Source: Spirochaetota bacterium (GTDB lineage Bacteria > Spirochaetota > UBA4802 > JAFGJZ01). From it: DNA of 64,000 nucleotides. Positions 11,927-28,228 of the stretch are shown piece by piece (the first letter of the stretch is position 1; the number at the start of each line of letters is the position of its first letter). The translations under genes and the position numbers were made by a program. The notes beneath the pieces were generated by a model. The model worked only from the letters and a program-made list of their open reading frames with translations, searched no databases and had not been told where the DNA came from. The stretch is taken from positions 1 to 64,000 of the forward strand of contig JAFGRW010000079.1 of the NCBI GenBank assembly GCA_016934935.1. Reading direction: 5' to 3'.

Positions 11927-13087
11927 CTAAAAATAATCGTTATTTTCTACAAAATCAGGATCTTCCAACATCATTTCCGACACCGCAGCTTCCCGGTAAC
12001 GGGATATATTTAATAATATTCCGGAACATATCATGCACGCTACTAGAGAAGATCCCCCATAGCTTATAAATGGCAATGGTATACCAGTTGTAGGAAGTGC
12101 CCCGGTTACAACTCCGATATTTATATATGCCTGAATAACTATATTCAGAGTCAATCCAATTGCCAATAATCTTCCAAAATCATCCGAAGCGCTTACGGCA
12201 ATCTTTATACCTCTATAAAAGAAAAATGTAAAGAGCAAAATTACGACAACTGAGCCGACTAACCCTGTTTCTTCCGCAATAACAGCAAAAATAAAGTCGT
12301 TATGCGGTTCCGGCAGTCTGCTGATCTTTTGTGTTCCGTATCCAAGGCCGACTCCAAGCAGCCCACCTGTTTTAAAAGCAATAAAAGACTGAATAAGGTG
12401 GTATCCGCTACCGTATCTGTCTTGCCAGGGGTCAAAATAAGCCATTATTCTGGACCTTCTATAATCAACCTGATATATAAGAAGATAAAACGCCGGAATA
12501 CTTAAAACAAACAGTGTTACTATATATATCATCGAAAATCCCGATAAAAACAGTATTGTAACACAAACAATCAAAAGATCTACCGCAGTTCCAAAGTCAG
12601 GCTGCATCAAAATAAGTATAAAAACAGACCCTAAAAGCATCATTGGTATAAGTAGCTGCATCAGTGGATTAGCAGATTCACTGACATCCTGCGAAAAAAC
12701 CTTCGCCATATAAATAACCATAAAAATCTTCACAAATTCCGAAGGTTGAAAACCGATTCCGCCAACCCTTATCCATCTTGCGGATCCTTTTACAACATGT
12801 GCAACTCCAGGCACTAACAACATAACAAGCAAAACAAATGAAACAAGCAGAAAAACCTTGCTGAACTTTTTGTAATGTCTATAGTCAATCTCCTGAAAGA
12901 AAACCAAACATACAAAACCAACAACAAACCAGAGCAGCTGTTTCTTGAGAATAAAAAAAGAATCTCCATGAGTTTTTAGTGAAAAAACCGCGGACGCTGA
13001 ATAACTCATAGCAATCCCTACCCCGGCCAGCACAAAAACTGTCAGGAAAAAAACCGCGTCAGGAACACCTTTTCGCCGCGTATCCAC
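11927..13087 (-). CDS. ftsW: Peptidoglycan polymerase FtsW (SEDS family)
   Basis: SEDS-family glycosyltransferase that polymerises lipid II at the septum. 386 residues, about ten membrane segments, GTG start at 13087 with CAGGA upstream. Conserved blocks: SYSASAVF near the N-terminus, GFQPSEFVKIFMVIYMAK, MQPDFGTAVDLL, EPHNDFIFAVIAEETG, and TGIPLPFISYGGSSL. Its usual partner transpeptidase gene ftsI is not in this operon. The 340 bases upstream hold repeats rather than a gene, so it could be partly uncoupled from murD. Confidence 0.95.
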   Translation of the reverse strand: MDTRRKGVPDAVFFLTVFVLAGVGIAMSYSASAVFSLKTHGDSFFILKKQLLWFVVGFVCLVFFQEIDYRHYKKFSKVFLLVSFVLLVMLLVPGVAHVVKGSARWIRVGGIGFQPSEFVKIFMVIYMAKVFSQDVSESANPLMQLLIPMMLLGSVFILILMQPDFGTAVDLLIVCVTILFLSGFSMIYIVTLFVLSIPAFYLLIYQVDYRRSRIMAYFDPWQDRYGSGYHLIQSFIAFKTGGLLGVGLGYGTQKISRLPEPHNDFIFAVIAEETGLVGSVVVILLFTFFFYRGIKIAVSASDDFGRLLAIGLTLNIVIQAYINIGVVTGALPTTGIPLPFISYGGSSLVACMICSGILLNISRYREAAVSEMMLEDPDFVENNDYF

Positions 13088-13128
13088 TAAAGTCCTGAGA
13101 TCCAGATTACTCCTCCATTCTCTAAAAG

Positions 13129-13202
13129 GGAACTTCGAAAAATTACCATTTCTGGAACGGCTATGCCGTTTAAATCATAATAAGGAAATTTTCACAAGTT
13201 CC
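13129..13202 (+). repeat. Dispersed palindromic element, copy A
   Basis: Starts GGAACTTCGAAAAATTACCAT and ends AAATTTTCACAAGTTCC, so the ends are imperfect inverted repeats. The centre holds a perfect hairpin, AACGGC-TAT-GCCGTT. A related full copy lies at 28097-28174 and a partial copy at 24055-24104. Confidence 0.7.
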
Positions 13203-13346
13203 TCTGCTGGTCGTCCATCACCATTTTTTATAAATGGTGCTGCACTGCTCGCAGATGCATCCTCTGCTGGTCGCAAGATGACTCTTGCTGCTCGCAGATG
13301 CATCCTCTGCTGGTCGCAAGATGACTCTTGCTGCTCGCAGATGCAT
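13201..13346 (+). repeat. Tandem repeat array, 43-bp units
   Basis: Two identical 43-bp units (13261-13303 and 13304-13346), preceded by a related 60-bp unit (13201-13260) that begins with the same 13 bases (CCTCTGCTGGTCG) and ends the same way. Each unit can fold: GCAAGA-TGAC-TCTTGC in the 43-bp units and CACCATTT...AAATGGTG (13219-13239) in the long unit. It directly adjoins palindromic element A. Confidence 0.8.
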
Positions 13347-13427
13347 CCTTATTAAAAAGTTGATCATTAGAGATTACCAACAGTTAAAACTGTTTATGCG
13401 CAAATTTCATCTACAACAATTCTGTTA

Positions 13428-14795
13428 TTACAGTTCAGCTACGCATCTTTTGAAATCTCTTCCGCGTTCTTCAAAATCCCTGTACATATCAAAAGAGGCA
13501 CATCCCGGTGATAATACAACGGAATCACCACTTCGCGCGAAATCTTTCGCTTTTTTAACAGCTTCCTCCATTGAGGCAGCACGTTCATGACTAATATGAG
13601 AAAATAATATTTCAAACTCGTCTGCAGTTTCCCCAATTAGAACTGAATGTCTCACACCCGTACGCAATGCTTCTGCCAAAAGACCGTAATTTTCACCTTT
13701 TGCACGGCCACCCACAATAAATACTGTGTCTTTGCCGCATGCAGCAATAGCGGTTTTAACCGAATTAACAGTGGTTGCCTTTGAATCATTAATATAGGTA
13801 ACACCGTCAATTGTCGCAACATACTCAAGCCGGTGCTCTAGACCGGGGTAGTCACACGCAGCCTTCAAAATTGTGTTATAATCAGGATCATCACCGACCA
13901 GCCTAATATAAGATTGAATCATAAGCAATGATGCCATGAAATTTTTGATATTGTGAATACCTCTTATCAAAAGATTTGAAGGATCAATTTTTACTTTACT
14001 GTTTTCATCTTTTAAAAAAATTGTCTGCCCGTCATAGAAACAGTCAGCGTTACAGTCATTTATTGAAAAAGATAAACCTTTCGCGTTTATCTGTTGAGCA
14101 CTATATGCTATTACCTCATCATCAAGATTATAAACCAGATAATCCGATGATCCCATATTCATACCAATTCTTAGTTTAGCTTGTAAATAATGATCCATAG
14201 AGTCATATCTGTCAAGATGATCAGGCGCAAGATTAAGCAAGGTCGCAATACCCGGGTGAAAATCAAATACAGTCTCAAGCTGAAAAGACGAGAGCTCAGC
14301 TACAGTAACACTATCGTCTTTAGACTTTTCAACAAGTGAAATCAGAGGCACACCAATATTACCCCCCTCCCTTGAATCATAACCAATAGTTCTTAGAATA
14401 TGATTTGTTAAAGAGGTCGTTGTCGATTTACCGTCGGTACCGGTAATGGCTATCCATTTTCCGCTCATAAAATAGTAAGCTAGTTCAACTTCCGAAATTA
14501 CCGGTAATGCTCTCTTGTTGGCTTCAACAATTAAAGGAATCGATGCCGGAACACCAGGGCTTAAAACCAAAAAATCAAAATTTTCATCCAGAATTTCCGG
14601 AGACTGTTTACCAACAACAACATCCACATTTTTATCAAGTTTCTTTATAATCTCTGTAAGTTCCGCGACACTCTTGTTATCCGATACAGTAACTTTATAA
14701 CCGCGTTGTGAAAGAAAGTTGGCACTGGTAAGACCTGTTCGAAACCCAAGACCTACAACAAGCACTTTGCCTTTTTTATCAATATCAATCTTCAC
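13428..14795 (-). CDS. murD: UDP-MurNAc-L-alanine--D-glutamate ligase MurD
   Basis: Cytoplasmic ligase adding D-glutamate to UDP-MurNAc-L-Ala. 455 residues from GTG 14795, 8 bases after the mraY stop; the frame is open further upstream but that would overlap mraY. VLVVGLGFRTGLTSANFL is the N-terminal nucleotide-like fold, ITGTDGKSTTTSL the P-loop, LNLAPDHLDRYDSMDHY and INDSKATTVNSVKTAI are Mur ligase blocks, and LSPGCASFDMYRDFEERG is specific to MurD. The 340-base gap to ftsW follows. Confidence 0.94.
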   Translation of the reverse strand: MKIDIDKKGKVLVVGLGFRTGLTSANFLSQRGYKVTVSDNKSVAELTEIIKKLDKNVDVVVGKQSPEILDENFDFLVLSPGVPASIPLIVEANKRALPVISEVELAYYFMSGKWIAITGTDGKSTTTSLTNHILRTIGYDSREGGNIGVPLISLVEKSKDDSVTVAELSSFQLETVFDFHPGIATLLNLAPDHLDRYDSMDHYLQAKLRIGMNMGSSDYLVYNLDDEVIAYSAQQINAKGLSFSINDCNADCFYDGQTIFLKDENSKVKIDPSNLLIRGIHNIKNFMASLLMIQSYIRLVGDDPDYNTILKAACDYPGLEHRLEYVATIDGVTYINDSKATTVNSVKTAIAACGKDTVFIVGGRAKGENYGLLAEALRTGVRHSVLIGETADEFEILFSHISHERAASMEEAVKKAKDFARSGDSVVLSPGCASFDMYRDFEERGRDFKRCVAEL

Positions 14796-14803
14796 TATTA
14801 TAC

Positions 14804-15901
14804 CTATAGAATTTTTAATGTCGAGATCCCAATAAGCGCAAGGATAATCCCGATAATCCATAATCGCACTACTACCTTCTGTTCACTCCATCCTGATAGT
14901 TCAAAATGGTGATGAATGGGTGCCATCTTGAAGATACGTTTTTTTCTTAATTTATAATATCCCACCTGTATAATCACTGAAACTGTTTCTATCACGAATA
15001 CGCCTCCAACGATGAAAAGCAGAAGCTCCTTTTTAATCATTACAGCTATCAATCCGATTATACCACCAAGAGCAAGTGATCCCGTATCGCCCATAAAAAC
15101 AGAAGCCGGATTAGAGTTAAACCAGAGAAATCCAAGCGACGCCCCGGCAAGCGCTGCGATAAACACTGATATCTCACCGGCATCAGGTATATGTGGTATA
15201 TTCAAATATGCTGCTACCGGAGCTAGCCCGGTTAGGTACGATATTATTCCAAGAGTAACGCTGACAATAAGTACAGAACCAATAGCCAACCCGTCAAGTC
15301 CATCAGTAAGATTAACCGCGTTAGAAGAGCCAACTATTGTTACAGCGCCAAATACTATCCAGAATATTCCAAGATCAATCAATGAATTGCTGTCAACTTT
15401 TGATATAAAGGGTATAAATACCTTTGTTGTAAACTCTCCGTTTGAAGGGTTAAAATAAATTATCAGAACAGCTGCTAAAGCGATAAGTATCTGAAAAAAA
15501 AGCTTCATTCGCCCCGGCATACCATCTTTCCGCTTTAAAATTGCCTTGATATAGTCATCAGCAAAACCAACAGCTCCAAGAAGCAACGTTGCCGACATTA
15601 AGACTATATTGTAAAGATTGAGCAAGTTTGACCACAACATGGATGAAAATAGAATCGCTCCAAGTATTATAACCCCTCCCATCGTAGGAGTCCCCGCCTT
15701 GGCCTTATGTGAATCAGGACCCAGAGCGCGAATCTCTTCCTTGAATTTAAGGTTGCGGAGCCACCCGATTATCAGGTTGCCAAAAACAAGTACAAAAAGC
15801 AATGCTGTAACAGCCGCGTAAAGCGATCTGAATGTGATATATTGAAAAAGTCTTAAAAAAGAGACGTATTTCTGCAACGGAACCAATAAATGATAAAACA
15901 T
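14804..15901 (-). CDS. mraY: Phospho-MurNAc-pentapeptide transferase MraY
   Basis: Integral membrane enzyme that makes lipid I from UDP-MurNAc-pentapeptide and undecaprenyl phosphate. 365 residues, about ten membrane segments. Key blocks: KAGTPTMGGVII, FADDYIKAILKRKDGMPGRMK (catalytic Asp pair), NAVNLTDGLDGLAIG, FMGDTGSLALGG, and the cytoplasmic HHHFELSGWSEQKVVVR near the C-terminus. It lies 7 bases after murF. Confidence 0.97.
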   Translation of the reverse strand: MFYHLLVPLQKYVSFLRLFQYITFRSLYAAVTALLFVLVFGNLIIGWLRNLKFKEEIRALGPDSHKAKAGTPTMGGVIILGAILFSSMLWSNLLNLYNIVLMSATLLLGAVGFADDYIKAILKRKDGMPGRMKLFFQILIALAAVLIIYFNPSNGEFTTKVFIPFISKVDSNSLIDLGIFWIVFGAVTIVGSSNAVNLTDGLDGLAIGSVLIVSVTLGIISYLTGLAPVAAYLNIPHIPDAGEISVFIAALAGASLGFLWFNSNPASVFMGDTGSLALGGIIGLIAVMIKKELLLFIVGGVFVIETVSVIIQVGYYKLRKKRIFKMAPIHHHFELSGWSEQKVVVRLWIIGIILALIGISTLKIL

Positions 15902-24048: not shown

Positions 24049-24054
24049 CAGGTA

Positions 24055-24104
24055 GCTTCGAAAAATTACCATTTCCGAAACGACTATATTTAGTCACAAA
24101 GCAA
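24055..24104 (+). repeat. Dispersed palindromic element, partial copy C
   Basis: GCTTCGAAAAATTACCATTT followed by CCGAAACGACTATATTTAGTC aligns with the left half of copy A. The central hairpin is kept as GACTA-TATT-TAGTC although the bases differ. The right arm is missing or diverged. It lies between the convergent diguanylate cyclase and lipoprotein genes and reaches into the 3' end of the latter. Confidence 0.5.
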
Positions 24105-24777
24105 GACGTATTTTTTTTCCATCCGAGTCGGTAACTGTAGATTTTATAAGTAGCTGTCTGAATGTCAGGTGATCATCATAAAATTCACGGATATTCTGTT
24201 TTAAAAGCCAGACCGTCATAAGTTCCCGACGCCCGCGCCTGAACCAGAAAAGTCCCACAACAACACCTTCCACACTCGTTTCCGAAAGAATATCATCATA
24301 CCGCCTTGTTACCTCAAGAGCATTTGGAAGATACTTGTCGATCATGGCGGCACCATTAATAAAATAATTCTTGTCTTCATCAACAAAATTTTGACTACAG
24401 CTAACGTCAAACCCAAGATACAAAAGATCAGTCTCTTTACCAAGACGGTCATAATAGAAACCGATTGATCTTTCTTTAATATTATATCTATGCTTTTCTG
24501 TTAAAACTTCAGCAAGTCCCAAAAGACAACGTTCATGTTTCTTATGATAGTATTCACCATCAGTAGTATAATCCTCCGGTTTCACCAGAAACCGAGCATA
24601 TTCATCGGGTTTTTCGGCTACATAATTAGACACCGAATATTTATCCTCTGGTGGTTCAGGATCCGAGATAATAATGGATTTCGTGTTGCCACCGGTTGTA
24701 GCAGTACCACAAGAAAAAACACTAACAACAGAAATGAATATAAATAATTTTACATAATGACTCAAAATAATTTTCAC
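24094..24777 (-). CDS. Hypothetical lipoprotein
   Basis: 227 residues, GTG start with AAGGA upstream. The signal peptide ends in a lipobox-like VFSCG (Cys at about residue 23). The mature part is charged, with alternating strand and helix, and ends about 15 residues after a basic patch (FRRGRRE). No known domain is recognised. It is the last gene of a three-gene operon with the ATPase-like and cyclic-nucleotide-binding-like proteins, four bases after the ATPase-like stop, so a shared pathway at the cell envelope is plausible. Confidence 0.6.
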   Translation of the reverse strand: MKIILSHYVKLFIFISVVSVFSCGTATTGGNTKSIIISDPEPPEDKYSVSNYVAEKPDEYARFLVKPEDYTTDGEYYHKKHERCLLGLAEVLTEKHRYNIKERSIGFYYDRLGKETDLLYLGFDVSCSQNFVDEDKNYFINGAAMIDKYLPNALEVTRRYDDILSETSVEGVVVGLFWFRRGRRELMTVWLLKQNIREFYDDHLTFRQLLIKSTVTDSDGKKIRLAL

Positions 24778-28042: not shown

Positions 28043-28096
28043 AAAAGAAACTCCTTAAACAATAATGGAAACCTCTAAAAATTAACTTTTCAACAA

Positions 28097-28174
28097 GGAA
28101 CTTGCGAAAAATTCCTTTAGAATAGACACTTAAACCATGTTGCCCTCTGGAACATGGTAATTTTTCGAAGTTCC
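28097..28174 (-). repeat. Dispersed palindromic element, copy B
   Basis: Starts GGAACTTGCGAAAAATTCC and ends GGTAATTTTTCGAAGTTCC. Read on the minus strand it matches copy A at both ends (GGAACTTCGAAAAATTACCAT and AAGTTCC). The central hairpin here is CCATGTT...AACATGG, different bases but the same design. It lies between the CNB-like gene and the HNH gene. Confidence 0.7.
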
Positions 28175-28228
28175 CTAATAACAGGACACATAAAATCACG
28201 CCAATATAAAAGAATTTCACCCTGCAAT

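Follow-up and report, generated by a model that had tools for sequence, protein, structure and literature searches.

A probable composite MITE-type element with tandem hairpin modules at the murD-ftsW junction of a Spirochaetota bacterium

Dispersed intergenic palindromic repeats of the REP/BIME, ERIC and Correia kinds place structured RNA in operons, a likeness that they share with the element described here. In the account given in PMC3049150, BIME, ERIC, Correia and BOX elements alter the expression of co-transcribed genes, and the boxB part of BOX is described as a tandem array. For the BrickBuilt and MITE464/PgRS elements of Porphyromonas gingivalis, PMC4596501 gives internal repeats of 23 and 41 nt.

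We analyzed a window of 64,000 nt of a Spirochaetota genome (assembly GCA_016934935.1, contig JAFGRW010000079.1, positions 1 to 64,000), in which tandem hairpin units lie between murD and ftsW of a minus-strand cell-division operon. These 43-bp units form just the central part of a larger element, 251 bp long (13128-13378). This is very probably a composite, non-autonomous transposable element of the MITE type, one copy of a family restricted to the genus. A simpler story, element insertion, replaces the regulatory one of the original prediction: what lies here is most likely a genomic parasite and not a switch made for ftsW.

The murD-ftsW junction and its insert

Tandem Repeats Finder placed a period-43 array at 13245-13349 (2.4 copies, 100% matches). 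With a score of 210 it ranks first among the 37 rows for the window; outside the array the runner-up has 68. Three plus-strand units of one module, M1, share the build TCTGC-TGGTC-(inner hairpin)-TGCTC-GCAGA-TGCATCC: a 60-nt long-hairpin form with a 33-nt inner hairpin at 13203-13262, then two identical 43-nt short-hairpin forms at 13263-13305 and 13306-13348. The predicted tandem 43-bp units are thereby borne out, as two identical units and a longer one. The perfect small hairpins claimed for all of them hold for the 43-nt units, each with a perfect 6-bp hairpin (GCAAGA-TGAC-TCTTGC), but not for the 60-nt unit, where pairing is perfect only for the inner 8 bp. A 17-nt core, searched with up to 3 mismatches, has 3 matches in the window, all in the array, against 0.09 expected.

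The whole element (13128-13378, plus strand, its own orientation antisense to the operon) is supported by a left-half profile match of 62.4 bits and a right-end score of 19, against a maximum of 13 on shuffled sequence. Its left terminal inverted repeat (13128-13147, plus strand) reads GGGAACTTCGAAAAATTACC and is supported by the left-end consensus of 69 full copies, and its right terminal inverted repeat (13359-13378), read on the minus strand, is GGTAATCTCTAATGATCAAC, for which the right-end consensus is GGCAACCTCTAATAATTAAC. The plus-strand flanks, AAAA (13124-13127) and AACA (13379-13382), are a probable target duplication; they agree at 3 of 4 bases and are not exact, which is a point against the MITE reading. 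A second such point is that the gene separation exceeds the element by about 50 nt: of the 340-nt gap, the element takes up 251 nt and the duplication 4 nt, and some 50 nt next to murD are unexplained. This extra intergenic DNA, 49 nt on the minus strand from the murD stop to the element (13379-13427), lies outside the element, is of unexplained origin and begins with a 16-nt palindrome, AACAGTTAAAACTGTT; it had no significant repeat in 858 kb of the own genome, the best other match being 14 nt (E 0.12). The stretch with AACAGTTAAAACTGTT is foreign to the element and to the gene arrangement of relatives alike.

The window holds a second, bare copy of 109 bp (28067-28175, minus strand) with a perfect 4-bp duplication, ATTA/ATTA, located about 25 bp upstream of an ATG. 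A left-end fragment without a right end lies at 24051-24115. GC content is 33% in bare elements versus 38% in the sample, and 44% in the window copy because of its modules.

The operon had been described as tightly packed except for one 340-base gap. The gap is there (340 nt counted from the GTG start, 13088-13427), but a second one, of 124 nt, separates ftsA and ftsZ. The names murE, murF, mraY, murD, ftsW, murC, ftsA and ftsZ hold at NCBIfam cut-offs; murG, at 230.7, falls under its cut-off of 250.25, and a 223-aa ORF of the operon had no NCBIfam match. murD occupies 13428-14861 (minus strand; TIGR01087, 400.6 bits). For ftsW (11927-13105, minus strand), the ORF list begins at GTG 13087, and the resulting 11927-13087 product scores 404.8 bits against TIGR02614 (cut-off 337.5).

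To see the junction in relatives, 13 genomes were searched with MurD, and 12 of the loci also hold ftsW; the thirteenth, G003 (66% complete, a weak match of 27% identity), was dropped. In all 12 readable relatives the murD stop lies 7-17 nt ahead of the codon aligned to the listed FtsW start of the window, and, as judged by eye, an in-frame ftsW NTG overlaps the murD end (ATG, GTG or TTG in 11, CTG in G001, a genome of the same genus). None of these 12 sites carries the element. Because murD and ftsW overlap in 12 of 12 readable relatives, the insertion is lineage-specific and uncoupled two normally overlapping genes. The window MurD stops early (..CVAEL-stop) compared with that of G001 (..CVAGLGEELSGS-stop). 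A Shine-Dalgarno-like GGAGGAG (13110-13116, minus strand) is intact downstream of the element, and its purine-rich counterpart lies within murD in relatives. Since GGAGGAG (13116-13110) and a CTG (13103-13105, minus strand) remain, the latter homologous to the NTG codons that overlap the murD end in relatives, ftsW probably starts at CTG 13105 rather than GTG 13087. The locus offers a natural test of how an overlapping murD/ftsW pair fares once structured DNA comes between the two genes.

Copies of the element and their hairpin modules

The genome that holds the window is a draft of 3.75 Mb in 138 contigs, 89% complete. With the array region as query we obtained 21 DNA matches in it, and a side-by-side comparison of 20 of them showed that the likeness runs past the array, to GGGAACTTCGAAAAATTACC on one side and a GGTTGCC-type end on the other. 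An 18-base left-end pattern (the last 18 bases) matched the genome 146 times with 3 mismatches allowed, versus 3 times for the reversed control. A profile search detected 24 copies or fragments in a sample of 438,314 bp, mostly contiguous, which included contigs picked for holding matches, and a left-half profile detected 117 distinct left ends in 858,100 bp that had largely been selected around left-end matches. A right end was recognizable in 72 of these 117 rows (threshold 14; maximum on shuffled sequence 13); removal of 3 internal matches to the same element left 69 full copies. Lengths range from 67 to 312 bp over the 72 rows, and the 69 copies fall into classes of 104-110 bp (33 copies), 161-190 bp (13) and 230-265 bp (14), the remainder being longer than 265 bp (2), 111-160 bp (3) or shorter than 104 bp (4). 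Hence, the bare element is about 109 bp, and longer copies hold hairpin modules.

The terminal inverted repeats are imperfect (GGGAACTTCGAAAAATTA / GGCAACCTCTAATAATTA), their consensuses being alike at 15 of 20 positions. An exact 4-bp duplication flanks 41 of the 68 testable copies, and at least 3 of 4 bases agree in 58 of the 68. When flanks were shuffled among partners (2000 shuffles), exact 4-bp matches averaged 7.6 and never exceeded 17, and moving the boundary by 1-2 bases reduced exact duplications to 0-2; identity over 5 bp was found in 0 of 72 rows. Because of this excess over shuffles and the loss of signal on boundary shift, the 4-bp flank repeats are a target-site duplication. ORFs, assigned by a simple longest-ORF rule, cover 88% of the sample, yet only 3 of the 72 element rows fall within one. 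By gap count, 26 of 61 elements sit between co-directional genes versus 239 of 347 gaps, with 3 duplicate rows still in; this apparent depletion gave way to no clear bias among kinds of intergenic region once intergenic length was used as a weight (6, 4, 3 observed versus 6.9, 4.8, 1.3 expected, n = 13).

The defining features of a MITE that we tested, namely inverted ends, a duplication of constant length, short size without coding capacity and many copies, are all present. An insertion sequence (IS) partner with the same ends is often missing in accepted MITEs and was not counted as defining. The left halves of 33 bare own-genome elements average 85% identity; many copies are therefore old, a point against the MITE reading that makes present mobility only a possibility.

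Several contigs of this genome stop inside hairpin modules and share ends of 50-76 nt (L008, L009, L011, L174, L175; L006, L007, L182). Candidate larger elements with cargo at contig ends (C91, C26, C126, C129, C23; C85, C45, C131; C105, C106) were rejected, as the shared ends, where followed, lead into unrelated host genes. The shared ends are probably assembly effects of the repeat, a warning that such arrays fragment draft assemblies.

Where the bare element reads ..GCAAGTTCC-TTGTTGAAAAG.., longer copies carry their modules at or near that point. Module M1 comes in two forms, one whose inner hairpin is long and one with the short hairpin GCAAGATGACTCTTGC, the latter being the 43-bp unit; there are at least two further types, M2 around TCTCGTTGTCACTCGAAAAA and M3 around GTTACCCGTGGGGCTTTTATCTT. 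Short M1 units occur at five own-genome loci in numbers of 3, 2, 1, 1 and 1 (8 matches), so that an element copy in this genome holds 0 to 3 of them. In G001 the unit pattern has 51 matches at 36 loci, with one unit at 24, two at 10, three at 1 and four at 1. Spacing within loci is exactly 43 in 14 of 15 cases, and the remaining spacing, 85, has a variant unit between. Because of that variant, the locus concerned (L064, G001:C31, 20162-20367) is the largest array, with five tandem M1 units, one of which has another inner hairpin, GCAAGCTACGCTTGC. Elsewhere in G001 no element end could be recognized up to 600 bp away from a lone 43-bp-type module (L224, G001:C22, 2401-2435), a hint that modules may also occur outside the element.

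Identity among short M1 cores is 96% within species and 94% between the two species, values that come from 31 units, mostly at loci from the 3-mismatch pattern, and are biased upward. Set against the 85% of base elements within one genome, 94% between species could mean that the module is under selection and has not simply spread neutrally. Of 64 regex matches, 57 passed the filter for a comparison of modules. The sides of the internal loop read TGGTC in 41 of 57 modules and TGCTC in 56 of 57. Outer-stem pairs 1, 3, 4 and 5 are Watson-Crick in 54 to 57 of 57 and, being nearly invariant, are uninformative for covariation. Pair 2 is Watson-Crick in 28 of 57, with C-G only in the own genome and G-C only in G001; this pattern is suggestive at most of covariation and is confounded by descent. 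One further idea, which we consider unlikely, is that the modules are cassettes: a hairpin-recognizing mechanism separate from the transposase would exchange, stack and multiply three hairpin types at one fixed acceptor site, and the 43-bp module would be under selection, either for this mechanism or for a function as RNA. The three types and the near-invariant short unit, together with the natural splitting of a conserved overlap, are where the interest of the element lies.

Origin of the insert and its effect on ftsW

We suggest that copies of a bare element of about 109 bp inserted at many sites, most of them intergenic, and that each insertion duplicated 4 bp of target, as the statistics across copies show. 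Some copies gained hairpin modules at the one internal point (..GCAAGTTCC / TTGTTGAAAAG..), and the 43-bp unit, as its copy numbers show, multiplies head to tail, presumably by slippage or unequal crossover. A copy that has one long module and two short ones lies in the murD-ftsW junction, in this lineage only, and separated the genes; ftsW is now probably translated alone from the GGAGGAG and CTG downstream.

The original prediction of a strongly structured transcript before ftsW agrees with the predicted fold of the 251-nt element (-85.7 kcal/mol, z -5.2 on the sense strand). The other strand folds almost as well (-84.0 kcal/mol, z -4.9), and a strong fold on either strand is as expected of a palindromic element. 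The proposal of a partial terminator fared worse: between 13000 and 13500 there are 0 intrinsic terminators (GC-rich hairpin plus T run) on either strand, so transcription probably reads through the element. The single promoter-like site found was no better than shuffles, and Rfam at gathering score returned 0 matches in the window, the gap containing only two sub-threshold matches at chance level, far below threshold. The idea of a translational buffer survives in part, since the conserved murD/ftsW overlap is broken and ftsW translation may well have changed; an effect of the insertion on FtsW level is possible. Plausible side effects, by analogy, are lost coupling to murD, RNase cleavage and delay of ribosomes or polymerase, where the hairpins may draw RNases or slow ribosomes. 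Because the ftsW ribosome-binding site was spared, the likeliest state of affairs is that the element is tolerated in the operon.

Later regulation as a by-product, in which the transposable copy came to affect ftsW translation or mRNA half-life through the broken overlap and the hairpins, is compatible with insertion of a MITE-type element, and we regard it as a tentative possibility. FtsW is required in dividing cells, and large effects would be selected against; moreover, the Shine-Dalgarno-like site and start codon are intact downstream. In favor of such an effect, the overlap kept in 12 of 12 readable relatives is lost here, and ERIC, Correia and BOX elements, as PMC3049150 presents them, are a precedent on co-transcribed genes.

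It is very unlikely that the insert is instead a dedicated cis-regulatory RNA tuning FtsW as a partial terminator, processing site or buffer. Its strong sense-strand structure, its position exactly between murD and ftsW and the variation in unit number between loci in the own genome and G001 would suit that role, but the same sequence recurs at many unrelated loci, and neither a terminator nor an Rfam family at gathering score was found. In addition, none of the 12 readable relatives has the element at this junction, which shows that the murD-ftsW pair manages without it. The assumption that the element is particular to the cell-division operon fails, as it is one of many transposable copies.

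Insertion of a MITE-type element raises the question of its partner and range. Element matches were present in 2 of 98 genomes tabulated, the own genome and G001, and the 43-bp unit pattern occurred in 2 of 14 genomes searched, with no match in the remaining 12. Collections of phages, plasmids and viral contigs contained no match to the element, and a literature search showed no paper on this repeat family among those listed, a weak negative. Searches with PF01609, PF01797 and PF00665 did not find a transposase of the family. PF01609, searched in the own genome only, had 1 degenerate match there; PF01797 (Y1_Tnp) had 3 matches in the own genome and 2 in G001, and PF00665 had 5 match rows and 4, respectively. 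Both element ends together were found at none of these loci (own genome, and G001 for the latter two profiles). One G001 transposase-domain locus (L307) has a single element end at 3-4 mismatches. We also scanned the 45 left ends without a near right end for an autonomous copy, up to 2.5 kb or less at contig or stretch ends, and found no convincing right end; the best long-range score was 14, at 983 bp in one copy (shuffled maximum 13). A partner transposase is expected to have IS ends of the sequence GGGAACYTCKAAAAATTA with 4-bp duplications. In G007, a genome of the same order and another family, 14 contig ends carry GGGAACCTCTAAAAATTACT, which resembles both ends of the element (L309-L319). 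No transposase was seen with this repeat, all 14 matches of which are at contig ends with the inside unassembled; it is a possible lead to the type of the IS partner.

We judge it highly improbable that mobility is of the REP/RAYT kind, by single-stranded hairpins, with the 43-bp module recognized by a Y1 transposase. The conserved hairpin with its near-invariant loop sides (TGGTC 41/57, TGCTC 56/57), the Y1_Tnp matches in both genomes (3 and 2) and the lone G001 module without recognizable element ends within 600 bp all fit such a mechanism. However, nearly all modules are found at a single set position within an element whose targets are duplicated, and a search of the 5 Y1 loci for element ends found them at 0 of 5.

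An assembly artefact, with repeats mis-joined in the draft, is scarcely credible: the 138 contigs and the several contig ends inside modules with odd shared 50-76-nt ends would allow for one, but the window contig crosses the element with intact genes on either side, other fully assembled copies keep the same part order and the same units occur in the separate same-genus genome G001.

Comparison with described repeat families

REP/BIME, ERIC and Correia elements differ from the present one in ends, duplication and modular build, and here no Y1 transposase is linked to the ends. The G007 repeat is like it in that its end resembles both element ends, and differs in that its inside is unassembled.

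BrickBuilt and MITE464/PgRS, as PMC4596501 describes them, resemble the present element as MITEs with an internal tandem repeat between leader and tail, an intergenic position and a restricted range. The same source gives them IS5-type ends, known IS partners and only 19 BrickBuilt copies. In the present element, by contrast, no partner was found, copies are more numerous and the unit folds into a hairpin that contains an internal loop. We liken it to this pair more loosely than to BOX.

According to PMC3049150, BOX of Streptococcus pneumoniae and S. suis, with its boxA-boxB(n)-boxC build, has inverted-repeat end modules, target duplications and, between the ends, a variable number of tandem hairpin modules. 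Some species have additional types of module (boxD), the RNA is predicted to be strongly structured, and the position is mostly intergenic; these are likenesses to the element described here. The differences are the organism, the bare length of 109 bp, the 4-bp duplication and the element's own modules M1, M2 and M3. By architecture the element would work like BOX; we liken the two by build, not by sequence homology, and claim no membership. Besides BOX and BrickBuilt/PgRS, it would be a further case of a MITE with variable tandem modules.
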